Shown one piece after another: positions 2,826 through 35,243 of a stretch of DNA of 64,000 nucleotides; the first letter of the stretch is position 1; the number at the start of each line of letters is the position of its first letter. Source of the stretch: Mycoplasmatota bacterium (GTDB lineage Bacteria > Bacillota_I > Bacilli_A > MAG-NZ); NCBI GenBank assembly GCA_018394315.1, contig CP074575.1, positions 372,001 to 436,000 on the forward strand, given 5' to 3'. Under the pieces are notes generated by a model. The model saw nothing but the letters and a program-made list of their open reading frames with translations, made no database searches and was not told the DNA's origin. Made by a program: the position numbers and the translations under genes.

Positions 2826-4112
2826 ATGCACTCAAATTCTATCACATTTAATAATGATATAAAATCTATTTTCAATATCCACGATAAATCTATAGTCCTA
2901 GATAACTATGAAATTATCGATGACTCAATAATCATTCATCTTTCAAGGAATCGCCAATTAGTCAAATGTTCAGTCTGTGGAGAATTAACTGATAAGGTCC
3001 ACGACTATTATATTCGCACTATTAATCATGGTGTTTTCAATAACCGTAAGTGTTTTATTAAATACAAGCAACGTAGATATCGTTGTGATTGTGGTAAGAG
3101 ATTCTCTTTACCTAATCAATTTGTTGAGAAGTACAATAAGATTAGTTCTAACTCTAAATGGAGTATCATTAACGAGGCTATACTTGTTTCTTCTTTCAAA
3201 GACATGGGGAAAAGACTTAATATGTCTTCTACCACTGTAAGAAGAATATTTAATATACATTGTAAACAATCTAGAAAGTCTTTACCTAGAGTATTAAGCA
3301 TTGATGAATTCAAAGGTAATAGTGGTGGATACAAATACAATCTAAGTATTTGTGATCCTTCTAATAGACAAATAATAGATATATTACCTTGTAGATATAA
3401 GGATTACTTACACCACTACTTTAGTACGTTTTCTTCTGAAGAACTAAGTAATGTAGAGGTTATTACTATGGATATGTATCATACTTACCACGATATTTGT
3501 AAGGAATTCTTTCCTAACGCTACTATAGTAATCGATACTTTCCACTTTGTTAGACTAGTTACCAATGCAGCTAATAATGTAAGGATTAGAATTATGAAGA
3601 AGTTTAATCGAATTGATAAGCAATACAAAGTCCTCAAATCTAGATGGAGATTATTTAATACTAAACCAGATTGCATCTCGGATAAATGGATATTTGATAA
3701 AAGGAGTAAGCAATGGACAAGTGATTCATCATTACTTGATTACATGAGAAACATTCATCCAGAGTTAGGTAAGACCAGAGAGTTACTAGAATCGTTTTAT
3801 GAGATTGTTCATAACTCAAGCTATCCTACCGTTTATCATGAGCTCAATAATTGGATCATTGAAGCGAAGAAAACTAACATTGGTGAAGTTAGAGAAGCAG
3901 CATTATCTATAGAAAGGTGGTTACCTGAGATAGTTAATTCGTTTATGATTAATCCTGATACTGAAACTAAATACACCTCAGCCTTTATTGAAGGTAGTAA
4001 TAACTATATCAAAGTGATAAAACGTACTTCATATGGATTTAGATGTTTCAATACTTTTAGAAACAAAATACTTTATCATCACAATAATTCAAGACATATT
4101 ATATCTGCATAG
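2826..4112 (+). CDS. ISL3-family transposase
   Basis: This DDE transposase moves the ISL3 element around it. The 428-residue protein has an N-terminal zinc-ribbon region (CSVCGELTDK, then YRCDCGKRFSLP), a helix-turn-helix region around residues 120-150, and the DDE_Tnp_ISL3 core with ITMDMYHTY and IDTFHFVR. The C-terminus AFIEGSNNYIKVIKR supplies the catalytic Glu. All family landmarks are present and the frame is unbroken, so the gene is probably functional. A ribosome site (AGAAAGGAAATT) precedes the ATG, and a hairpin terminator follows the stop. Confidence 0.95.
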   Translation: MHSNSITFNNDIKSIFNIHDKSIVLDNYEIIDDSIIIHLSRNRQLVKCSVCGELTDKVHDYYIRTINHGVFNNRKCFIKYKQRRYRCDCGKRFSLPNQFVEKYNKISSNSKWSIINEAILVSSFKDMGKRLNMSSTTVRRIFNIHCKQSRKSLPRVLSIDEFKGNSGGYKYNLSICDPSNRQIIDILPCRYKDYLHHYFSTFSSEELSNVEVITMDMYHTYHDICKEFFPNATIVIDTFHFVRLVTNAANNVRIRIMKKFNRIDKQYKVLKSRWRLFNTKPDCISDKWIFDKRSKQWTSDSSLLDYMRNIHPELGKTRELLESFYEIVHNSSYPTVYHELNNWIIEAKKTNIGEVREAALSIERWLPEIVNSFMINPDTETKYTSAFIEGSNNYIKVIKRTSYGFRCFNTFRNKILYHHNNSRHIISA

Positions 4113-4126
4113 TTATGCACAAAAAA

Positions 4127-4156
4127 AGGACATAGATTTTTTCAATCTATATCCTT
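4127..4156 (+). terminator. Terminator of the ISL3 transposase
   Basis: An imperfect hairpin (AAGGACATAGATT with AATCTATATCCTT) directly follows the transposase stop, inside the element. Confidence 0.6.
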
Positions 4157-4239
4157 AAACTCTTACTCATTTATTGAGTTTACCCCAATCCTTGACTTAG
4201 AGCCATGATAACTCATTCGACTAGACCTTTTTAGATTAT

Positions 4240-5220
4240 TTACAAATTATCAAAATTATTATATCTTTCTTTTAATTCCATTAATCTGTCTTTACATAAT
4301 AATATTATAATCAAACATTCAATGATATCTATTGTTTCTATATAATCTATATCAAATGAACCTTCTTTCAAAAGATTATCTATAAACTCATTCAAATCAT
4401 TAACTATCTTATCTTCAACACTATAGTTATAAACTTTAAGTGAATGAAGTGAAAAATTTCTTAGCGATAGATGGTCATATTTATTACTCTTAATCGATGT
4501 TACAATTTTTGAATAGGCTATATTTAACGCTGATATCAATCCAGCAATTTGAAAACTTCTACCTTTATTATCAATTAACTTTTTCAAATGCATTTTTGCT
4601 GCAAAATCCAAGATCTCTTGATCGGCTTGAAGAACAAATTCAAATGCATCTGAACTGTCATCATATGCTAATTTATAAACTACATCACAAGAGTATTTAT
4701 TTATAATTCCAATAGCAATATCATTTGATAACATTACTTCTAAACTTTCTTCCCCAACAAATACATTAATCTCATTTTCAGTATCAAGAGCTTTTTGACT
4801 ATTAATCACTAATCTTCCTTGCCTTATGATTGTTTGAGTAATCATAAACAAGACTGATAATAAAAATACGTATATAGTAATGAAGGTGTATAAAAGATGT
4901 AAATTTGTCAATTTGAATATTAATACTAAAAATAACGATATGATAAATGATACAGAAATCTTTCTTATACATTTCTTAAAAGCATGCCAAACTATAACAA
5001 CTATTATTTTAGAGTAAAGATGCCATTTTGGATACTTGCGCTCAATATCCATTAGTTTACTAGAATAAAAGTGTATTAATAAGGTATATAAAAATATTGT
5101 ATTAATTCTTTCATTGTCCTTCATCATGGTATGAGTTTCTCTTAAACTAGTTTTATAGAAGTCATCTACATAAGATGTAAATCGACTATTTATATGCGAT
5201 AATTCAGACGCCAAATACAT
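4240..5220 (-). CDS. Unknown membrane protein of the MreB operon, copy B
   Basis: I do not recognise this family. The protein has a charged helical N-terminal part of about 90 residues, two or three membrane segments (ISVSFIISLFLVLIF and LLYTFITIYVFLLSVLFMI) and a helical cytoplasmic C-terminal domain of about 170 residues. I chose the ATG at 5220 because GGAG lies 5 bases before it. The upstream ATG at 5271 has only a weak site and would overlap the EAL gene by 68 bases instead of 17. The overlap suggests translational coupling to that gene. The copy A protein differs at only two residues. Its place in the operon suggests a membrane partner for the EAL-like protein or MreB. Confidence 0.75.
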   Translation of the reverse strand: MYLASELSHINSRFTSYVDDFYKTSLRETHTMMKDNERINTIFLYTLLIHFYSSKLMDIERKYPKWHLYSKIIVVIVWHAFKKCIRKISVSFIISLFLVLIFKLTNLHLLYTFITIYVFLLSVLFMITQTIIRQGRLVINSQKALDTENEINVFVGEESLEVMLSNDIAIGIINKYSCDVVYKLAYDDSSDAFEFVLQADQEILDFAAKMHLKKLIDNKGRSFQIAGLISALNIAYSKIVTSIKSNKYDHLSLRNFSLHSLKVYNYSVEDKIVNDLNEFIDNLLKEGSFDIDYIETIDIIECLIIILLCKDRLMELKERYNNFDNL

Positions 5221-6505
5221 TATTACTCCATATTTGTTCTTCAAAACGATTAAACTCTCTAGGTTTTCCATACCAAAAACCTTGAACTAAATTTAAGTCA
5301 TATTTAATAAGCGCGTGTAATTCATCTACCTTTTCAATTTTTGTAACAATAACTTGTACTCCTTTAGATACAAGAAATTCTATAAACTTTGAAAATTCTG
5401 GTTTCTTGTAATGGTCAGTTGTTATTTTTATCATATCATAAGGAAATTTTCCATGGATCTCAATTAACTCATCAAAGCTAAATGAGATATTATCAATGCA
5501 TACCTTAAACCCTATGTCTTGTATTTTTCTTAGGTTAGATATACAGTCATTATCCTTGAATGTTACCATATTAATATGTATTAGAATATTGTTGACTGGA
5601 ACTTGTTTATATCTTCGAATCAAGTTATCGAGCCTTTTCACAAATGAATCACTCAATGATTCTTTTGCAACCTTGATTCCTATAATAAAATTTTCATCAA
5701 CTAAATTCTTATTGAGTAATTTTAAATAATTTTTGAGTGCATCCTCAGCTATACCAAAGTCTACATTTGAAATTAGGTTTCTTTTAATAGCTAATGGTAT
5801 AAACACATTAGGATTTAAAACTTTGTCCTTGTTTTTCCACCTTGCAAGTGTTTCAAAACCTACGATTTTGACCTTTTTAGTATCGTATATACATAAATAA
5901 TGGGATATTATCTTATTTGAATCATCAATTCCATAACTTTTTTCTACGTTATTTGGGTTATCCAAATTTATTAAATTATAATTAGTGTTCCGATTTTTAG
6001 CTATATGACAACTACTAATAACTATGTCTAGTAAATCTTCTGAATTTGTTGGCAGTGACTTACTTATTACTGCACCTATATGAAACTTAAGCTTGATCTT
6101 TCTATTATCAATCTTAATATTTTTGTTTAAGTTATTTATTAATCTATCAGCTAACTGATGATGATTTGATTTTTTTTCTCTATTTACTAATACGAATTTT
6201 TCATCAGAAAAGCAAAATAAACTAAACATATATTCTTTAGAGTACTTCTTCAAAATAGAGATTAACTTACCTCTTATAATGCTTTCTTCCTTATCCGTGT
6301 ATACATTTTCTTTTAATTCGCTCATCTCTATATATAATACAAATCCAACATTATTTTTCTTCAAATGCCTATAAAATGAAAACCTACTTAGAATAGAATA
6401 TCTTCTGTTATATAGAATAGATTTTTGTAAAGTAATTTTTGTAAGAAAATAAAAAACAATCGGAGTTATTATTATTAAAATAAAAAATATATATTCCTTT
6501 GACAT
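5204..6505 (-). CDS. Membrane-anchored degenerate GGDEF-EAL protein, copy B
   Basis: The 433-residue protein has one N-terminal membrane helix (residues 4-21), a GGDEF-like domain (about 50-180) and an EAL-like domain (about 195-425). The GGDEF signature is reduced to SDEKF at 100-104. The EAL motif reads ETL at 218-220. The metal-binding Asn is Lys in GIKVAKESL, the DD pair is DN at 338-339, the AEG motif is TKI at 388-390, and the Asp after Lys360 is Thr. Gln408 in VQGF remains. It is therefore unlikely to make or break cyclic-di-GMP; a ligand sensor or scaffold is more plausible. It sits 75 bases after mreB, beyond a hairpin. Confidence 0.8.
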   Translation of the reverse strand: MSKEYIFFILIIITPIVFYFLTKITLQKSILYNRRYSILSRFSFYRHLKKNNVGFVLYIEMSELKENVYTDKEESIIRGKLISILKKYSKEYMFSLFCFSDEKFVLVNREKKSNHHQLADRLINNLNKNIKIDNRKIKLKFHIGAVISKSLPTNSEDLLDIVISSCHIAKNRNTNYNLINLDNPNNVEKSYGIDDSNKIISHYLCIYDTKKVKIVGFETLARWKNKDKVLNPNVFIPLAIKRNLISNVDFGIAEDALKNYLKLLNKNLVDENFIIGIKVAKESLSDSFVKRLDNLIRRYKQVPVNNILIHINMVTFKDNDCISNLRKIQDIGFKVCIDNISFSFDELIEIHGKFPYDMIKITTDHYKKPEFSKFIEFLVSKGVQVIVTKIEKVDELHALIKYDLNLVQGFWYGKPREFNRFEEQIWSNNVFGV

Positions 6506-6538
6506 TTAATCACATCCAGTCATTTTAACTTTAGAAAT

Positions 6539-6573
6539 AAAATCCATCCTAGAATTCTAGAAATGGATTTTTT
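6539..6573. terminator. Intra-operon hairpin between MreB pair and EAL pair, copy B
   Basis: AAAATCCAT and ATGGATTTT flank a perfect CTAGAATTCTAG palindrome, with T-rich tails on both strands. It may be a leaky terminator or processing site that lowers expression of the two downstream genes. The same hairpin is kept in copy A. Confidence 0.6.
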
Positions 6574-6580
6574 CAGACAA

Positions 6581-7606
6581 TTAATCTAAAGGTTTTACTA
6601 AGTAACTACCTTTATTTTTCAATAATACTTTAGTACCTTCACAAATTGCAGTCAATGCGTTACTAGTTATTTTAACATCAACTTGTAATCTATTTGACAA
6701 GAAATCAGCGATACCATGAATTAACGCTCCACCACCATTAACAATAATTCCATCATTGATAATATCAGCTGCTAACTCTGGAGGAGTTTGCTGTAATACT
6801 CTTTGAACTGTATTTACAATTTCCTCGAAAGCTTCTATTAAAACATCTCTAATCTCTTTTTGAGTAATTTCGATTTCTTTTGGTAAACCAGTTAATAAAT
6901 CTCTACCTGCGATCTTCATCGTTTCAGATGCGCCAGATAACGCTTCATCTAAAGTACCAATTTCTTTTTTGATTTTTTCAGCTGAAATCGAACCGATAAG
7001 TACTTGATGAGTAAACTGAATATGTTTAATAATCGCTTCATCAAAGAATGTTCCTGCGACACGAATCGATTCAGAATTTACTATATCACCAAGTGATAAC
7101 ACACCGATATCTGTTGATCCTCCACCGATATCAATAACCATAGCTCCCTGAGGTTTGAAAATATCTGCGCCTGCCCCGATTGCTCCAGCTTTGACTTCTT
7201 CTTCAATAAAACATTCACCAATACCTAGGTCTGAAGCTAGTTCAATTAAAGAATCTCTCTCTATTTGAGTTACTTCTGAAGGGCAGCTTAATAGAAGAGT
7301 TGATGCCGAAAGATCATAAGAATCTTTATCTATCTTCTGTAGTACATACTCAATCAAAGTTCCTGCAGATCTAATGTCTGATATTACACCTAGGTGTAAA
7401 GGCTTAGAAATAGTAATTCTATCATGAGTTTTACCAACCATTTTTGCCGCTTCTTTACCAACAGCTATAGTTTCACCAGTTTCATTATCGTACGCAACTA
7501 CAGATGGTTCATTAAATACAACACCTTTCCCCGCTACATACACTAGAGTATTAACTGTACCCAGATCAACACCTATACTTAATCCTTTTTTCTTTTTAGT
7601 TTCCAT
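6581..7606 (-). CDS. MreB-like actin homologue, short type, copy B
   Basis: MreB proteins are bacterial actins that form filaments at the inner membrane. This 341-residue protein has normal MreB length. It keeps the nucleotide motifs GVDLGTVNTLVYV (phosphate 1), DIGGGSTDIGVLSLG (phosphate 2) and NGGGALIHGI (adenosine). The catalytic segment reads FIEEEVKAGAIGAG where rod-shaped bacteria have an EEPMAAAIGAG type. It follows the other mreB by 14 bases with an AAGGAGGG ribosome site, so the two are co-translated. There is no mreC, mreD or rodA nearby, so a role in shape change or motility rather than the wall elongasome is possible. That is an inference. Confidence 0.93.
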   Translation of the reverse strand: METKKKKGLSIGVDLGTVNTLVYVAGKGVVFNEPSVVAYDNETGETIAVGKEAAKMVGKTHDRITISKPLHLGVISDIRSAGTLIEYVLQKIDKDSYDLSASTLLLSCPSEVTQIERDSLIELASDLGIGECFIEEEVKAGAIGAGADIFKPQGAMVIDIGGGSTDIGVLSLGDIVNSESIRVAGTFFDEAIIKHIQFTHQVLIGSISAEKIKKEIGTLDEALSGASETMKIAGRDLLTGLPKEIEITQKEIRDVLIEAFEEIVNTVQRVLQQTPPELAADIINDGIIVNGGGALIHGIADFLSNRLQVDVKITSNALTAICEGTKVLLKNKGSYLVKPLD

Positions 7607-7620
7607 AATTACCCTCCTTC

Positions 7621-8715
7621 TTATTCAGTATCTGCATCTTTTACAAAGTGCCCTCGTGTTTTAAGTAATACTTTGGTACCTAAAACTACCGAAGTTAACG
7701 GATTACTAGAAACTCTAACTTTTAATCCAAGTTTTTCAGTAAAATACTCAGCAGCATGATCTACTAATGAAACACCACCATTTAATAAGATTCCATCATA
7801 ATATATGTCTGAACATAACTCAGGTGGAGTATCTTTAAATGCAGAAATAATTAAGTTTTTAATGTCATTAAAGATAGGTAATAATACTTCAGTTACGTTT
7901 CTTGATGTAATCTCTGTATGTCTTGGTAAACCTGTTAATAAATCTCTACCAGCAACTCGCATTGTAGCTACGTCTTTTTTCTCATTTACAGTTCCTAATT
8001 CAATTTTTATTCTCTCAGCAGTTTTTTGCCCAATCTCAATTTTCAAATGTTGTTTACAATACTTAATAATTTCATGATCAATAAAATTACCAGCCATTCT
8101 TAACGTTTTAGATAATACAACATCACCTAAGTTAAGAATACCAACATCGGTAGATCCACCACCAATATCAACCACCATTGTACCTCGGTCATCATAGATA
8201 TCTACACCAGATCCTACACATCCAGACTTAATTTCTTCCTCAATATAAACTTCTTCTATCCCTAATTGTTGAGGAAGTTGCAATAAAGCTTTTCTTTCGA
8301 TTTGAGTTACCTCTGATGGGCAACACAGTACACTTCTAATCTCAGAGTTGCTTGCATGTAAGTTTACTTTAGAAAACACGAATTTAAGTAAATCTTTAGC
8401 GGCTCTAATATCAGAAATAACACCATCTCTTAAAGGTCTAACTATTTTAATTTTATCATGAGTTTTCCCAGTCATGTTATCTGCCTCAAACCCGGCTGCG
8501 ATTACTTTTCTCGAATCTCTATCGTATGCTACTATAGAAGGTTCATCAAATATGATTCCTTGTCCTTCAACATAGACTAGTAAATTTACCGTTCCGAAGT
8601 CGATACCAACTCCAACTTTTCTGACTTCGATGTTCTCAGGAGTCTCTTCAACTACTTCTTCAATAGTTTCGAAAGATTCAAGAGGTTCTTTTTTAGAATT
8701 TTTATTTTTAATCAC
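7621..8715 (-). CDS. MreB-like actin homologue with acidic N-terminal extension, copy B
   Basis: This 364-residue MreB is the first gene of the operon. About 33 extra residues, rich in Glu, precede the actin core that starts at VGVGIDFGTVNLLVYV. The phosphate 2 motif DIGGGSTDVGILNLG is intact. The adenosine motif is LLNGGVSLVDH, so the third Gly is replaced by Val, which may change nucleotide binding. The catalytic segment is YIEEEIKSGCVGSG. The start is a GTG placed 7 bases after GGAG; the nearby ATG is out of frame. It is clearly paralogous to the second MreB of the operon, and the two could form mixed filaments. Confidence 0.92.
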   Translation of the reverse strand: MIKNKNSKKEPLESFETIEEVVEETPENIEVRKVGVGIDFGTVNLLVYVEGQGIIFDEPSIVAYDRDSRKVIAAGFEADNMTGKTHDKIKIVRPLRDGVISDIRAAKDLLKFVFSKVNLHASNSEIRSVLCCPSEVTQIERKALLQLPQQLGIEEVYIEEEIKSGCVGSGVDIYDDRGTMVVDIGGGSTDVGILNLGDVVLSKTLRMAGNFIDHEIIKYCKQHLKIEIGQKTAERIKIELGTVNEKKDVATMRVAGRDLLTGLPRHTEITSRNVTEVLLPIFNDIKNLIISAFKDTPPELCSDIYYDGILLNGGVSLVDHAAEYFTEKLGLKVRVSSNPLTSVVLGTKVLLKTRGHFVKDADTE

Positions 8716-8751
8716 ACATATTCTCCTTTCGTCTTGCTCTTTAACATTCTA

Positions 8752-8779
8752 ATTTTATCAAGTTTAAACAAATTTCGCT
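8752..8779 (-). promoter_or_regulatory. Putative promoter of MreB operon, copy B
   Basis: A TAAAAT -10 box with a 16-base spacer to AGCGAA is conserved at the same place in copy A (TATAAT). The -35 is a poor match to consensus, so the operon may need an activator or another sigma factor. Similarity between the copies ends just beyond it. Confidence 0.5.
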
Positions 8780-8872
8780 ATCGAGATTTACTTAATCGAT
8801 GAATACAATTGAATAGTTTATTTGATAAATTAATTAATTATTAAGAACTTTATTAAATAATATTATTTTAAT

Positions 8873-9209
8873 ATGGTTAATACCATGTTTTGGAAAGAAA
8901 ATTTAGTGACTTATTTATTTAGAGAAGCACCAAATACTATCGAGAATTGGCAACCTGAAATTACTAATTCATTTATAATTAATTCTGAGGCAAATTCTAA
9001 GTATATTAATGATTATATCGAAGCCACAAATAATTATTTTGAGTCACTAAAACGAATGTCATACAGTATTAGAAATTTCAATACATTCTGAAACAAGATT
9101 ATTTACCAGCGGACGATCCACTTACGGTTTGGTTACTAAAAAAAGTATTACTCTAAAATAAGAGCGATACTTAATTATTTGCTTTTGATCCCATCCTTGA
9201 TTCAGAGCC
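8873..9209 (+). pseudogene. Relic of an ISL3-family element (transposase C-terminus and right end)
   Basis: The frame from 8873 to 9091 encodes a segment matching the last 60 residues of ISL3 transposase, including ENWQPEITNSFIIN, DYIEATNNYFESLKR and RNFNTF. It is stopped by a TGA exactly where the intact enzyme continues with RNKIL. The sequence at 9185-9209 is a decayed copy of the ISL3 right inverted repeat (GGCTCTGAATCAAGGATGGG on the minus strand). Protein similarity to the intact element at 2826 is only about half, so this is an older and different insertion. The left part is lost. Confidence 0.85.
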
Positions 9210-9333
9210 TCTTTTGTAAATAACGTGATATAAAGGTTTGAAATTTTACAACACACTACTAAATGAAAATACACGTTCATTTAGTAAATAACAAACTACT
9301 CAATTATTTCTTGAATTAACTCTCCTTCATTGA

Positions 9334-10314
9334 TTACAAATTATCAAAATTACTATATCTTTCTTTTAATTCCATTAGTCTGTCTTTACATAATAAGATT
9401 ATAATCAAACATTCAATGATATCTATTGTTTCTATATAATCTATATCAAATGAACCTTCTTTCAAAAGATTATCTATAAACTCATTCAAATCATTAACTA
9501 TCTTATCTTCAACACTATAATTATAAACTTTAAGTGAATGAAGTGAAAAATTTCTTAGCGATAGATGGTCATATTTATTACTCTTAATCGATGTAACAAT
9601 TTTTGAATAGGCTATATTTAACGCTGATATCAATCCAGCAATTTGAAAACTTCTACCTTTATTATCAATTAACTTTTTCAAATGCATTTTTGCTGCAAAA
9701 TCCAAGATCTCTTGATCGGCTTGAAGAACAAATTCAAATGCATCTGAACTGTCATCATATGCTAATTTATAAACTACATCAGAAGAGTATTTATTTATAA
9801 TTCCAATAGCAATATCATTTGATAACATTACTTCTAAACTTTCTTCCCCAACAAATACATTAATTTCATTTTCAGTATCAAGAGCTTTTTGACTGTTAAT
9901 CACTAATCTTCCTTGCCTTATGATTGTTTGAGTAATCATAAACAAGACTGATAATAAAAATACGTATATAGTAATGAAGGTGTATAAAAGATGTAAATTT
10001 GTCAATTTGAATATTAATACTAAAAATAACGATATGATAAATGATACAGAAATCTTTCTTATACATTTCTTAAAAGCATGCCAAACTATAACAACTATTA
10101 TTTTAGAGTAAAGATGCCATTTTGGATACTTGCGCTCAATATCCATTAGTTTACTAGAATAAAAGTGTATTAATAAGGTATATAAAAATATTGTATTAAT
10201 TCTTTCATTGTCCTTCATCATGGTATGAGTTTCTCTTAAACTAGTTTTATAGAAGTCATCTACATAAGATGTAAATCGACTATTTATATGCGATAATTCA
10301 GACGCCAAATACAT
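9334..10314 (-). CDS. Unknown membrane protein of the MreB operon, copy A
   Basis: This is the copy A partner of 4240-5220. It differs at two residues only (Ser for Cys in KYSSDVV and Ser for Asn near the C-terminus). The start at 10314 is chosen for the same reason, GGAG at 5 bases, and overlaps the EAL gene by 17 bases. The layout is the same: charged N-terminal region, two or three membrane helices and a helical C-terminal domain. Near identity while upstream genes diverge suggests recent gene conversion or strong selection on this protein. Its function is unknown. Confidence 0.75.
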   Translation of the reverse strand: MYLASELSHINSRFTSYVDDFYKTSLRETHTMMKDNERINTIFLYTLLIHFYSSKLMDIERKYPKWHLYSKIIVVIVWHAFKKCIRKISVSFIISLFLVLIFKLTNLHLLYTFITIYVFLLSVLFMITQTIIRQGRLVINSQKALDTENEINVFVGEESLEVMLSNDIAIGIINKYSSDVVYKLAYDDSSDAFEFVLQADQEILDFAAKMHLKKLIDNKGRSFQIAGLISALNIAYSKIVTSIKSNKYDHLSLRNFSLHSLKVYNYSVEDKIVNDLNEFIDNLLKEGSFDIDYIETIDIIECLIIILLCKDRLMELKERYSNFDNL

Positions 10315-11599
10315 TATTACTCCATATTTGTTCTTCAAAACGATTAAACTCTCTAGGTTTTCCATACCAAAAACCTTGAACTAAATTTAAATCATATTTA
10401 ATAAGCGCGTGTAATTCATCTACTTTTTCAATTTTTGTAACAATAACTTGTACTCCTTTAGATACAAGAAATTCTATAAACTTTGAAAATTCTGGTTTCT
10501 TGTAATGGTCAGTTGTTATTTTTATCATATCATAAGGGAATTTTCCATGGATCTCAATTAACTCTTCGAAGTTAAACGTTATATTATCTATACATACCTT
10601 AAACCCTATGTCTTGTATTTTTCTTAGGCTAGAAATACATTCATTATTATTGAAGGTAATCATATCAATATGAATTAAAATATTATTGACGGGAACTTCT
10701 TTATATCTTCGAATCAAGTTATCAAGCCTTTTCACGAATGAATCACTCAATGATTCTTTTGCAACTTTGATTCCTATAATGAAATTTTCATCAACTAAAT
10801 TCTTATTGAGTAATTTTAAATAATTTTTAAATGCATCCTCAGCTATACTAAAGTCTACATTTGAAATTAGATTTCTTTTAATAGCTAATGGTATAAACAC
10901 ATTAGGATTTAAAACTTTATCCTTATTTTTCCATCTTGCAAGTGTTTCAAAACCTACAATCTTGACCTTTTTAGTATCATATATACATAAATAATGAGAG
11001 ATTATCTTATTTGAGTCATCAATTCCATAACTTTTTTCTACGTTATTTGGGTTATCCAAATTTATTAAATTATAATTGGTGTTCCTATTTTTAGCTATAT
11101 GACAACTACTAATAACTATGTCTAGTAACTCTTCTGAATTCGTTGGCAGAGACTTACTAACGGCAGCTCCTATGTGAAACTTAAGCTTGATCTTTCTATT
11201 ATCAATCTTAATATTTTTGTTTAAGTTATTTATTAATCTATCAGCTAACTGATGATGATTTATTTTTGTATTTGCATTTACTAATACGTACTTTTCATCA
11301 GAAAAATAAAATAAACTAAACTTATATTCTTTAGAGTACTTCTTTAATATAGAGATTAATTTACCTCTTATAATGCTTTTTTCATTATCCGTGTACACAT
11401 TTTCTTTTAATTCGCTCATCTCTATATATAATACAAATCCAACATTATTTTTCTTTAAATGCCTATAAAATGAAAACCTACTCAGAATAGAATATCTTCT
11501 GTTATATAAAATAGATTTTTGTAAAGTAATTTTCGTTAAAAAGTAAAAAATAATCGGAGTTATTATTATTAAAATATAATATATATATTCTTTCGGCAT
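10298..11599 (-). CDS. Membrane-anchored degenerate GGDEF-EAL protein, copy A
   Basis: This is the paralogue of 5204-6505 with the same length and domain order. All the losses are shared: SDEKY in place of GGDEF, ETL, no metal-binding Asn, DN for DD, and TKI in place of AEG. Because both copies keep the open frame while sharing these losses, the loss of catalysis predates the duplication and the protein is likely still used. Differences cluster in residues 1-150 and 300-350, while about 165-248 and 351-433 are nearly identical, a mosaic typical of gene conversion. It is probably a membrane-bound sensor or scaffold that works with the MreB pair. Confidence 0.8.
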   Translation of the reverse strand: MPKEYIYYILIIITPIIFYFLTKITLQKSILYNRRYSILSRFSFYRHLKKNNVGFVLYIEMSELKENVYTDNEKSIIRGKLISILKKYSKEYKFSLFYFSDEKYVLVNANTKINHHQLADRLINNLNKNIKIDNRKIKLKFHIGAAVSKSLPTNSEELLDIVISSCHIAKNRNTNYNLINLDNPNNVEKSYGIDDSNKIISHYLCIYDTKKVKIVGFETLARWKNKDKVLNPNVFIPLAIKRNLISNVDFSIAEDAFKNYLKLLNKNLVDENFIIGIKVAKESLSDSFVKRLDNLIRRYKEVPVNNILIHIDMITFNNNECISSLRKIQDIGFKVCIDNITFNFEELIEIHGKFPYDMIKITTDHYKKPEFSKFIEFLVSKGVQVIVTKIEKVDELHALIKYDLNLVQGFWYGKPREFNRFEEQIWSNNVFGV

Positions 11600-11632
11600 T
11601 TAATCACATCCAGTCATTTTAACTTTAGAAAT

Positions 11633-11667
11633 AAAATCCATCCTAGAATTCTAGAAATGGATTTTTT
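11633..11667. terminator. Intra-operon hairpin between MreB pair and EAL pair, copy A
   Basis: This is the same AAAATCCAT / CTAGAATTCTAG / ATGGATTTTTT hairpin as at 6539-6573, at the same place in the operon. Confidence 0.6.
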
Positions 11668-11674
11668 CAAACAA

Positions 11675-12700
11675 TTAATCTAAAGGTTTTACTAAGTAAC
11701 TACCTTTATTTTTCAATAATACTTTAGTACCTTCACAAATTGCAGTCAATGCGTTATTAGTTATTTTAACATCAACTTGTAATCTATTTGACAAGAAATC
11801 AGCGATACCATGAATTAACGCTCCACCACCATTAACAATAATTCCATCATTGATAATATCGGCTGCTAACTCTGGAGGAGTTTGTTGTAATACTCTTTGA
11901 GCTGTATTTACAATTTCCTCGAACGCTTCTATTAAAACATCTCTAATTTCTTTTTGAGTAACTTCGATTTCTTTTGGTAAACCAGTTAATAAATCTCTAC
12001 CTGCGATCTTCATCGTTTCAGAAGCGCCAGATAACGCTTCATCTAAAGTACCAATCTTCTTTTTAATTTTTTCAGCTGAAATCGAACCGATAAGTACTTG
12101 ATGAGTAAACTGAATATGTTTAATAATCGCTTCATCAAAGAATGTTCCTGCGACACGAATCGATTCAGAAGTTACTATATCACCAAGTGATAACACACCG
12201 ATATCTGTTGATCCTCCACCGATATCAATAACCATAGCTCCCTGAGCTCTAAAAATATCTACACCTGCTCCGATTACTCCAGCTTTGACTTCTTCTTCAA
12301 TAAAACATTCACCAATACCTAGGTCTGAAGCTAGTTCAATTAAAGACTCTCTCTCTATTTGAGTTACTTCTGAAGGGCAGCATAATAGAAGAGTTGATGC
12401 TGAAAGATCATAAGAATCTTTATCTATCTTCTGCAGTACATACTCAATCAAAGTTCCTGCAGATCTAATGTCTGATATTACACCTAAGTGTAAAGGCTTA
12501 GAAATAGTAATTCTATCATGAGTTTTCCCAACCATTTTTGCCGCTTCTTTACCAACAGCAATAGTTTCACCAGTTTCATTATCGTACGCAACTACAGATG
12601 GTTCATTAAATACAACACCTTTCCCCGCTACATACACTAGAGTATTAACTGTACCTAAATCAACACCTATATTTAATCCTTTTTTCTTTTTAGCTTCCAT
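11675..12700 (-). CDS. MreB-like actin homologue, short type, copy A
   Basis: This 341-residue MreB is the copy A counterpart of 6581-7606 and differs at about a dozen residues, none in the nucleotide motifs GVDLGTVNTLVYV, DIGGGSTDIGVL or NGGGALIHGI. Most changes are conservative. It lies 14 bases after the first mreB of its operon with the same ribosome site. Two near-identical MreB proteins in one cell suggest a dosage effect or fine specialisation. Confidence 0.93.
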   Translation of the reverse strand: MEAKKKKGLNIGVDLGTVNTLVYVAGKGVVFNEPSVVAYDNETGETIAVGKEAAKMVGKTHDRITISKPLHLGVISDIRSAGTLIEYVLQKIDKDSYDLSASTLLLCCPSEVTQIERESLIELASDLGIGECFIEEEVKAGVIGAGVDIFRAQGAMVIDIGGGSTDIGVLSLGDIVTSESIRVAGTFFDEAIIKHIQFTHQVLIGSISAEKIKKKIGTLDEALSGASETMKIAGRDLLTGLPKEIEVTQKEIRDVLIEAFEEIVNTAQRVLQQTPPELAADIINDGIIVNGGGALIHGIADFLSNRLQVDVKITNNALTAICEGTKVLLKNKGSYLVKPLD

Positions 12701-12714
12701 AATTACCCTCCTTC

Positions 12715-13839
12715 TTATTCAGTATCTGCATCTTTTACAAAGTGCCCTCGTGTTTTAAGTAATACTTTGGTACCTAAAACTACCGAAGTTAATGGATTAC
12801 TAGAAACTTTAACTTTTAATCCAAGGTTTTCAGTAAAATACTCAGCAGCATAATCTACTAATGAAACACCACCATTTAATAAGATTCCATCATAATATAT
12901 GTCTGAACATAACTCAGGTGGAGTATCTTTTAATGTAGCAATCATTAAGTTTTTAATGTCATTAAAGATAGGTAATAATACTTCAGTTACGTTTCTTGAT
13001 GTGATTTCTGTATGTCTTGGTAAACCTGTTAATAAATCTCTACCAGCAACTCGCATTGTAGCAACGTCTTTTTTCTCATTTAAAGTTCCTAATTCAATTT
13101 TGATTTTCTCAGCAGTCTTTTGCCCAATCTCAATTTTCAAATGCTGTTTGCAATACTTAATAATTTCATGATCAATAAAATTACCAGCCATTCTTAACGT
13201 TTTAGATAATACAACATCACCTAAGTTAAGAATACCAACATCGGTAGATCCACCACCAATATCAACCACCATTGTACCTCGGTCATTATAGATATCTACA
13301 CCAGATCCTACACAACCAGACTTGATTTCTTCCTCGATATAAACTTCTTCTATCCCTAATTGTTGAGGAAGTTGTAATAAAGCTTTTCTTTCAATTTGAG
13401 TTACCTCTGATGGGCAACACAGTACACCTCTAATTTCAGAGTTGCTTGCATGTAAGTTTACTTTAGAAAACACGAATTTAAGTAAGTCTTTAGCAGCTCT
13501 GATGTCAGAAATAACACCATCTCTTAAAGGTCTAACTATTTTAATTTTATCATGAGTTTTCCCAGTCATGTTATCTGCATCAAACCCGGCTGCAATTACT
13601 TTTCTCGAATCCCTATCGTATGCGACTACAGAAGGTTCATCAAATATGATTCCTTGTCCTTCAACATAGACTAGTAAATTTACCGTTCCGAAGTCGATAC
13701 CAACTCCAACTCTTCTCTCTTCGATGTCTTCATCTGTCTCTTCTAAGACTTCCTCAGTAGTCTCTTCTAAGACTTCTTCAGTAGTCTCCACAGTCTCTAC
13801 AGATTGTACTGATTTTTTTTTAGAATTGATCTTTTGCAT
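12715..13839 (-). CDS. MreB-like actin homologue with repeated acidic extension, copy A
   Basis: This is the first gene of copy A. The actin core from RRVGVGIDFG onward closely matches 7621-8715, including the NGGVSLVD variant of the adenosine motif. The N-terminal extension is longer and contains a direct repeat, TTEEVLEE twice followed by TDEDIEE. I chose the ATG at 13839 (MQKINSKKK), which lies 8 bases after GGAG; the ATG at 13848 is only one base from that site. The length is then 374 residues. The acidic tail is likely flexible and may bind a partner or tune filament assembly. Confidence 0.9.
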   Translation of the reverse strand: MQKINSKKKSVQSVETVETTEEVLEETTEEVLEETDEDIEERRVGVGIDFGTVNLLVYVEGQGIIFDEPSVVAYDRDSRKVIAAGFDADNMTGKTHDKIKIVRPLRDGVISDIRAAKDLLKFVFSKVNLHASNSEIRGVLCCPSEVTQIERKALLQLPQQLGIEEVYIEEEIKSGCVGSGVDIYNDRGTMVVDIGGGSTDVGILNLGDVVLSKTLRMAGNFIDHEIIKYCKQHLKIEIGQKTAEKIKIELGTLNEKKDVATMRVAGRDLLTGLPRHTEITSRNVTEVLLPIFNDIKNLMIATLKDTPPELCSDIYYDGILLNGGVSLVDYAAEYFTENLGLKVKVSSNPLTSVVLGTKVLLKTRGHFVKDADTE

Positions 13840-13907
13840 TATATACATTCTCCTTTCGCCTTGCGATTAATTTATGGCAAATTCTTTGTGGCAAACACTT
13901 AATGTGC

Positions 13908-13935
13908 ATTATATCAAAAACTAACATATTTCGCT
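13908..13935 (-). promoter_or_regulatory. Putative promoter of MreB operon, copy A
   Basis: A TATAAT -10 box with a 16-base spacer to AGCGAA matches the spacing and position seen in copy B. The leader to the start codon is longer than in copy B and its sequence differs, so the two copies may be expressed differently. Confidence 0.5.
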
Positions 13936-13936
13936 A

Positions 13937-34141: not shown

Positions 34142-34690
34142 TTATTCTCCTAAAACTATTTCACATTCTTCTTTAATATTTAATTCAGTAAAATACTTGT
34201 TTTCTAATGGTATCCATTCATTTATGAATTTAGATAACATATGTTCCCCATTACGTTTCTTAATTCTCTCTATTTGTAATTTATCATCAATATCTATAAA
34301 GATAGATAGATCATAAAACTTTCTAAACTCAGGTCGCATTGAATACGCGCCCTCAATGATGATCAACTTATTCATCCTTCTTGAATCTTTATAGTAAACT
34401 CCATCTCTACAATCAAATCTACGAAATTCGATAATATCAGCAGCTAACTTTAGAAATACCTCTTCATATATTCTTTCATAATCAACATTTCCACCTGGTT
34501 CGCTCATTCTATCCAGAGTCTTTCTTTCAAAGGGTAAAAAATAATCATCCATATGGAATACGGTTCCGTTATATTTTTCTTTTAACTTATTAGCTAAAGT
34601 GGATTTTCCAGAAGCACATTTACCATCGATTGCAACTATAACTCTATCCTTTGAATTCAGTAAACTCCCTACTCTAGAATAAAGCTGCAT
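34142..34690 (-). CDS. Uridine-kinase-like P-loop protein, second of a pair
   Basis: This 182-residue P-loop kinase has Walker A DGKCASGKSTLANKL and the acceptor region FHMDDYFLP, both typical of the uridine kinase / phosphoribulokinase superfamily. The Walker B-like IIEGAYSMRPEFRKFYDLSI follows. The substrate is not certain: the family includes many uncharacterised nucleoside-kinase-like proteins. I chose the ATG at 34690, six bases after GGAGG, instead of one eight codons upstream. It overlaps the previous gene by 17 bases and is about half identical to it, so the two arose by local duplication. Confidence 0.8.
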   Translation of the reverse strand: MQLYSRVGSLLNSKDRVIVAIDGKCASGKSTLANKLKEKYNGTVFHMDDYFLPFERKTLDRMSEPGGNVDYERIYEEVFLKLAADIIEFRRFDCRDGVYYKDSRRMNKLIIIEGAYSMRPEFRKFYDLSIFIDIDDKLQIERIKKRNGEHMLSKFINEWIPLENKYFTELNIKEECEIVLGE

Positions 34691-35243
34691 CTTGAGCCTC
34701 CAAAACAACGTCACACGCTTCCTTTAAATTATAATGATCTATATACTCGTTTTCTAATGGTATCCATTTTTTAATATAATCTTTAACTCCCTCAATACCT
34801 TCTCTTTTAGTTAATCTTTCAATCTGGTGACTAGGATCAATACCAAGGAATATTTTCAAATCATAATACTTTCTAAATTCGGGTCGCATTGAATATGCAC
34901 CTTCAATGATAACAAGCTTTTTCAATTCTTTTTCCATAGGGTAATATTCTAGCGTGATATCACTGTATCTTTTATAGGAAACTTTATCTTGATCTAGTTT
35001 CTCATGAATTTCTGAAAGAACCCTATCGTAGTCAACATTACACCCTGGTTCACTCATTCTTTCAGGTGTTTTCTGCTCAATTGGTAAGTAGAACCAATCC
35101 ATTTGAAATACTGTTGCATCATACTTTTCTTCCAAGTGTTTTGAGAAAGTTGTTTTACCAGATCCACACATGCCATCAATTGCTACAATAACACGGTCCT
35201 TTTCACTCATTAATTTTTCGATTGCTTTATAAACTCTTTCCAT
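34674..35243 (-). CDS. Uridine-kinase-like P-loop protein, first of a pair
   Basis: The 189-residue protein has Walker A DGMCGSGKTTFSKHL, the segment FQMDWFYLP and LVIIEGAYSMRPEFRKYYDL, as in its neighbour. The acceptor Asp pair (DD in the neighbour) is DW here, so the two copies may use different substrates. It is the first gene of the run that leads through uvrA to whiA. No signal or membrane segment is present. Confidence 0.8.
   Translation of the reverse strand: MERVYKAIEKLMSEKDRVIVAIDGMCGSGKTTFSKHLEEKYDATVFQMDWFYLPIEQKTPERMSEPGCNVDYDRVLSEIHEKLDQDKVSYKRYSDITLEYYPMEKELKKLVIIEGAYSMRPEFRKYYDLKIFLGIDPSHQIERLTKREGIEGVKDYIKKWIPLENEYIDHYNLKEACDVVLEAQDAALF

Follow-up and report, generated by a model that had tools for sequence, protein, structure and literature searches.

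Cytoskeletons that are built from several MreB paralogues without the Rod complex (MreC/MreD/RodA) are known mainly from wall-less bacteria. In Spiroplasma, the clustered paralogues MreB1-5 and fibril form the swimming cytoskeleton; the different MreB types cooperate, and two of them are enough to make a minimal cell helical and to generate force (PMC9710875), and the mreB cluster contains a lineage-specific accessory gene that encodes the seventh protein (PMC10074174). Haloplasma contractile has seven MreBs (PMC8432965). Among GGDEF-EAL proteins, LapD and FimX are cyclic-di-GMP receptors that have lost catalysis, and RgsP of the Rhizobiales is a membrane protein required for cell growth, a role for which its EAL domain is dispensable (PMC6107284). 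In this work we analyzed a window of 64,000 nucleotides (positions 372,001 to 436,000 of contig CP074575.1, assembly GCA_018394315.1) from a Mycoplasmatota bacterium, which carries a tandemly duplicated four-gene module transcribed in the order mreB-A, mreB-B, a gene for a GGDEF-EAL protein (pEAL) and a gene for a membrane protein. The A and B classes of MreB and pEAL are found here in a host with peptidoglycan and sporulation genes. We consider the chances evenly balanced that the module belongs to an operon family that specifies a Rod-complex-independent, two-isoform MreB cytoskeleton, in which a dead GGDEF-EAL protein acts as membrane partner and possibly as a cyclic-di-GMP receptor.

The two copies occupy positions 4240-8715 and 9334-13848, both on the minus strand and with all frames intact, so that the duplicated mreB-mreB-EAL-membrane protein arrangement of the initial annotation is confirmed, its gene order included. 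All four MreBs match the Pfam family MreB_Mbl with expect values (E) of 1e-108 or better (363-379 bits against a cut-off of 27), and the phosphate-binding and catalytic motifs DLGT/DFGT, EEE and DIGGGSTD are intact in A and B of both copies; on these motifs, A and B are predicted to be competent for ATP binding and hydrolysis. The B-type proteins have in common a C-terminal tail that resembles NRGNYxVKPxD. The host genome has four MreBs, all in the tandem module; a fifth match, a frame of 617 amino acids (aa) with a low score, was read as DnaK. In the phylogenetic tree, clade A (support 97/90) and clade B (99/98; bootstrap 97 and 99, respectively) each include members from the window and from the genome families f12, f7, f16 and f22, and the window proteins group with mreB2 (A, 99/91) and mreB3 (B, 96/75) of f12. 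The five Spiroplasma MreBs form a clade of their own (100/99), and ordinary MreBs fall outside (100/100). This tree sets A and B apart as two ancient MreB classes, distinct from the five of Spiroplasma and from ordinary MreB. When 296 related genomes were searched, the MreBs of f12, of f7, of one f16 genome and of one f22 genome far outscored all others, and scores of the A/B type were obtained in only 10 genomes out of a phylum-wide sample of 392. Family f12 is read as Izemoplasmataceae, and its member G047 as Xianfuyuplasma coldseepsis; f7, with 6-7 MreBs per genome and genomes of 2.3-3.4 Mb, looks Haloplasma-like and includes the strain zrk4 ("Mycoplasmatota bacterium"). An mreB gene is also carried by a 98-kb plasmid of Mycoplasmatota bacterium zrk4 (L163 4013-5020, CP074574.1), and its product is ~50% identical to that of the window mreB-B.

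The arrangement A-B-pEAL, on one strand, was found in the f12 genomes G014, G025, G036, G047, G074, G130, G247 and G282, in G099 (f16) and in G312, G319 and G323; in G185 (f22) pEAL stands directly before mreB1-A-B. In every f12 cluster that was fetched whole, as well as in G099, the GGDEF-EAL gene directly follows mreB3 on the same strand, and the pEAL genes of G247 and G282 are cut by the contig end (the G247 fragment was identified as pEAL by search). The congener G001, recorded as a metagenome assembly under the title "uncultured Mollicutes bacterium", contains A and B followed by the beginning of pEAL, and was the only match of a contig scan with pEAL as query; pEAL was not found in viral contigs. 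Among 199 relatives of G047 there are 14 full or near-full pEALs at 528-737 bits, the next score being 170 (G247 fragment aside). Five further carriers comprise three with the A-B-pEAL order, one with a cut contig and G326, which has pEAL without mreB. In operon carriers the MreBs are ~50-57% identical to those of the window. A conserved unit A-B-pEAL is thus well supported, and the window module, where an A-class and a B-class MreB adjoin pEAL, falls within this family. The initial annotation would have been refuted by absence of the mreB-mreB-EAL-unknown order from all relatives, and it withstands this check: the first three genes do recur, but the fourth has no relative in the 296 related genomes, Pfam or NCBIfam, is found only in this host, and drops out of the general unit.

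Pfam recognizes the EAL domain of the window pEALs at E ~1e-26, and GGDEF only below its cut-off. The catalytic positions were compared between ten pEALs and 18 ordinary EALs from related genomes. The second Asp of the DDFG motif is lost in all ten pEALs and kept in 15 of the 18 ordinary domains, whereas the general-base Glu of AEGVE, kept in 18/18 ordinary EALs, is replaced in every pEAL (by Lys in eight, by Thr in both window copies). The GG of GGDEF is likewise lost in 10/10 pEALs, with FSDEK in its place in the window pEAL. The pEALs lack, in consequence, the complete residue set of an active cyclic-di-GMP phosphodiesterase (EAL, Asn, Glu, DD, Lys, EGVE, Gln) and the GG(D/E)EF motif of an active diguanylate cyclase. 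From its sequence, pEAL is predicted to be enzymatically inactive, with both domains degenerate, and the initial description of an inactive GGDEF-EAL protein holds as a prediction. Six positions do not vary among the ten pEALs: Glu of EAL, Arg of LxRW, the first Asp, Lys, Glu of GVE and Gln. In the EAL fold, we take these positions to include residues that contact the ligand in active EALs. Binding of cyclic-di-GMP by pEAL is possible because several putative ligand-contact positions are retained whereas catalytic ones are not, and the nucleotide is plausible in this host, since its genome has eight GGDEF matches, at least one of them with an intact RYGGDEF. A model of the copy 2 pEAL (AlphaFold2, mean predicted local distance difference test score, pLDDT, 78.5) retrieved GGDEF-EAL structures with Foldseek at E 3.5e-22, LapD at E 1e-17, and also the EAL domain of FimX; in profile comparison the window pEAL matches the other pEALs at E 2e-17 across both domains. 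The window pEAL has a single N-terminal membrane helix. A reading of the locus as a defence system was discarded, PADLOC giving no match for pEAL, mreB-A or the membrane protein.

The same residues bear on the best surviving alternative, that pEAL is a purely structural adaptor for MreB, a pseudo-enzyme scaffold that binds no cyclic dinucleotide. The loss of both sets of catalytic motifs in every pEAL speaks for such a scaffold, and the window pEAL is the most eroded, its Asn and second Glu metal ligands being gone too; the invariance of several ligand-contact positions in 10/10 pEALs and the presence of an intact cyclase motif in the host genome speak against it. We give this alternative appreciable weight, though less than even.

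The host genome is a single contig of 2,165,257 bases. It has rsmH, a gene for a SpoVD-like penicillin-binding protein, murE, mraY and murD, genes that we take, by their sequences, to be ftsW, murG, murB, divIB, ftsZ, spoIIGA and two for sporulation-type sigma factors, and three genes for transpeptidase-domain proteins. The host is thus very likely to synthesize peptidoglycan and to have spore-forming ancestors, and a wall-less host is ruled out by the peptidoglycan gene clusters. At L050 3674-7289, ftsZ-spoIIGA-sigE/sigG-like genes lie beside peptidoglycan genes; the congener is labelled Mollicutes, and the ancestors of the lineage were apparently walled spore-formers. For MreC, no match was obtained in the host genome at E 0.1, compared with matches in 9 of 14 control genomes; the one gene of the SEDS (shape, elongation, division and sporulation) family adjoins murG and is read by this context as FtsW; and no mreD was recognized among the genes flanking the mreBs, no search for MreD itself being made. 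The proposal of a dedicated MreB unit is supported as regards the undetected MreC and the lone SEDS gene beside murG. In G002, of the same family as the host, a weak MreC-like stretch with three stops, below the cut-off, was seen at L153 4032-4232, possibly a decayed mreC.

These wall genes invite the explanation that the MreBs direct peptidoglycan synthesis in a walled host, with other partners in place of MreC, MreD and RodA and with pEAL, not RodZ, coupling them to the wall enzymes. The peptidoglycan and division genes and the three transpeptidase-domain proteins agree with it, but the closest relatives of these MreBs are in wall-less organisms, Xianfuyuplasma carries A-B-pEAL without a distinct wall, the family member G002 has wall genes and no MreB (MreB is also absent from the family member G003), and the host has no second SEDS gene and no detectable MreC. 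We consider this explanation unlikely.

Compared with the described systems, the module resembles that of Spiroplasma in its clustered MreB paralogues without Rod complex and in an accessory lineage-specific gene within the mreB cluster. It differs in that the Spiroplasma MreBs belong to a separate clade with its own duplications (100/99), and in the peptidoglycan genes of the present host; no EAL partner is known from Spiroplasma. The Haloplasma-like genomes share the A and B classes in adjacent pairs; in contrast, they have no EAL gene beside the mreBs, the order of A and B is reversed and other neighbours are conserved. Two of these neighbours, of unknown kind (L098 9547-11433 and 5483-7060; also L099, L102 and L104), are a protein of 620 aa that ends in a PIN-like domain and one of 440-525 aa whose C-terminal part forms a membrane helix. 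The initial comparison with wall-less Spiroplasma and Haloplasma is half right, given that the host has peptidoglycan and sporulation genes. The closest counterpart is the mreB1-mreB2-mreB3-EAL operon of Izemoplasmataceae, with homologous A, B and pEAL in the same order; unlike the window module, it has three MreBs and lacks the membrane-protein gene, its pEAL carries a membrane hairpin of two helices, and it is present in a single copy in a wall-less host. pEAL shares with LapD and FimX the GGDEF-EAL architecture and the loss of catalysis, but it has no HAMP or periplasmic part, its neighbours are actins instead of a protease, an adhesin or a pilus system, and a receptor role is putative. RgsP is also a membrane-bound GGDEF-EAL protein; nevertheless, its periplasmic domain is large, its phosphodiesterase is active, and it works in polar growers that mostly lack MreB. 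In the open literature (subscription papers lay outside the search) we found no paper on an mreB-EAL operon, nor on MreB in Izemoplasma beyond a citation. A multi-MreB cytoskeleton is already known; what the searchable sources do not describe is its pseudo-enzyme partner, an A/B core that spans several families, and its occurrence in a walled host.

In the reading that we propose, A and B together would form membrane-associated filaments that are independent of the MreC/MreD/RodA elongation complex; pEAL would use its N-terminal helix to keep these filaments at the membrane or to regulate them there, possibly acting as a cyclic-di-GMP receptor as LapD and FimX do; and the membrane protein would be a second, lineage-specific membrane part. 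A two-isoform system is plausible because two MreBs are sufficient in the minimal cell (PMC9710875). Co-polymerization, membrane tethering, ligand binding and the cellular role are all inferred from the genes and their order. The initial annotation saw in the GGDEF-EAL protein a membrane-bound sensor, which is doubtful, since pEAL and the membrane protein both lack an extracellular domain, so that any ligand sensed would be cytoplasmic. The stronger statement, that an inactive cyclic-di-GMP receptor directly controls a two-isoform actin cytoskeleton through an operon common to wall-less lineages and to a bacterium with the peptidoglycan pathway, is tentative and somewhat unlikely. If true, it would tie cyclic-di-GMP directly to MreB and suggest that the multi-MreB skeleton known from wall-less bacteria can originate or be maintained in a walled cell; in any case the locus yields a candidate walled bearer, a defined partner protein and a testable link between a second-messenger protein and bacterial actin.

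Several observations weigh against the proposed cytoskeleton. The window pEALs lack two metal ligands, the Asn and the second Glu, which most pEALs of f12 retain, and the pEALs of f16 and f22 have no N-terminal membrane helix, so that helix anchoring is not universal. In the EAL tree the ten pEALs fall on one side of a branch supported by only 86/71, whereas those other than the window's form a firm clade (98/99). In the Haloplasma-like genomes the A and B mreBs have no EAL gene next to them, and a pEAL-like role for the conserved neighbours of their mreB clusters was rejected, the profile comparison being negative. In G326 (L151 559-2016) pEAL and its usual upstream neighbours are kept with no mreB between them, owing to loss or to an assembly gap. 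Finally, Xianfuyuplasma coldseepsis has mreB1-A-B-pEAL, and its cells are described as non-motile cocci (PMC8397711); the module, therefore, does not necessarily make a cell elongated or motile.

A module that serves intracellular positioning (of the chromosome, the division site or an inclusion) instead of cell shape would fit that coccoid, non-motile carrier (PMC8397711). Such work is common for actin-like proteins, yet the operons showed no gene for a DNA-binding partner and the window MreBs resemble true MreB more closely than ParM or MamK, which makes this explanation quite unlikely. That mreB and EAL genes are neighbours only incidentally, through shared ancestry or transfer and with no functional link, is very improbable: the f12 genomes are related, some of them retaining neighbouring genes too, and G326 has no mreB beside pEAL, but the order and the very short spacing hold in most f12/f16 operons while the outer neighbours change (G025 and G099 compared with G047), the linkage is kept in a different order in f22, and the order survives ~50-57% MreB identity to the window.

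Table 1. Features of the tandem module, with window positions, strand and supporting evidence
Copy 1 mreB-A, 364 aa, acidic N-terminal extension	7621..8715	-	MreB_Mbl E 1e-108; tree clade A; nucleotide motifs intact
Copy 1 mreB-B, 341 aa, C-terminal tail KNKGSYLVKPLD	6581..7606	-	MreB_Mbl E 2e-113; tree clade B; motifs
Copy 1 hairpin, mreB-B/pEAL gap	6543..6567	-	25 nucleotides same in both copies and congener G001; shuffle z -2.2
Copy 1 pEAL, 433 aa: N-terminal membrane helix (~residues 4-27), degenerate GGDEF, degenerate EAL	5204..6505	-	EAL E 8e-27
Copy 1 membrane protein, 343 aa (326 aa from second ATG)	4240..5271	-	Open reading frame (ORF); two membrane helices, ~100-150
Intrinsic terminator past copy 1	4126..4156	-	13-pair stem, then T run
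Copy 2 mreB-A, 377 aa	12715..13848	-	ORF; Pfam MreB_Mbl; tree clade A; motifs
Copy 2 mreB-B, 341 aa	11675..12700	-	ORF; Pfam MreB_Mbl; tree clade B; motifs
Copy 2 hairpin, mreB-B/pEAL gap	11637..11661	-	25-nucleotide core as in copy 1; folds better than shuffles
Copy 2 pEAL, 433 aa	10298..11599	-	Pfam EAL; lost catalytic residues; AlphaFold2; Foldseek
Copy 2 membrane protein	9334..10365	-	ORF; two membrane helices

Between the copies (Table 1), nucleotide identity is 94.1% for mreB-A, 97.0% for mreB-B, 93.5% for pEAL and 99.2% for the membrane protein, with base differences of 0.8-6.5%. The ratios of nonsynonymous to synonymous substitution rates, ~0.28, ~0.21, ~0.12 and ~0.08 in the same order, indicate purifying selection on each gene and that both copies are kept functional; a duplicate created by the assembly is ruled out by this selection and by the divergence of up to 6.5%. 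In the MreB tree the window copies are mutually closest, congener G001 excepted (A 99/75; B 99/82), which implies that the duplication is younger than the split from G001 or that the copies have been homogenized. The repeat unit stops a few bases past the last gene. Upstream, identity is ~76% at the mreB-A start and near-random beyond ~100 bp; of the common promoter layout claimed for the copies, a ribosome-binding site and a short AT-rich box are indeed shared, but the upstream regions have otherwise diverged, and in a promoter scan matches were no more frequent than in shuffled sequences, so no promoter is claimed. The contrast between the near-identical membrane-protein end and the unrelated 5' flank is explicable by uneven gene conversion.

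The membrane protein has a hairpin of two helices (~residues 100-150) with few residues between them, and its structure prediction was useless (pLDDT 36). Read from its first ATG, its ORF overlaps the EAL gene by 68 bp; a start at the ATG 17 codons downstream is more likely, with GGAG just upstream and an overlap of 17 bp. In the gap between mreB-B and pEAL, the palindromic 25-nucleotide hairpin core is identical in copy 1, copy 2 and G001 while the flanking bases vary, and it folds with z-scores of -2.1 to -2.9 relative to shuffles; Rfam gave no match in the window, hairpin included. This hairpin may set the MreB:pEAL ratio.

An ISL3-type transposase gene adjoins copy 1 (window 2826-4112) and an ISL3-like remnant lies between the copies (8873-9091); an IS200-like transposase fragment is present at 2070-2531, and a further full ISL3-type transposase gene is located several kb before the window (L051 8304-9590). 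Such surroundings, rich in insertion sequences, may have aided the duplication of the operon. Elsewhere in the window, at 34142-35243, two neighbouring and similar kinase-like ORFs of 190 and 189 aa are apparently another tandem duplicate.

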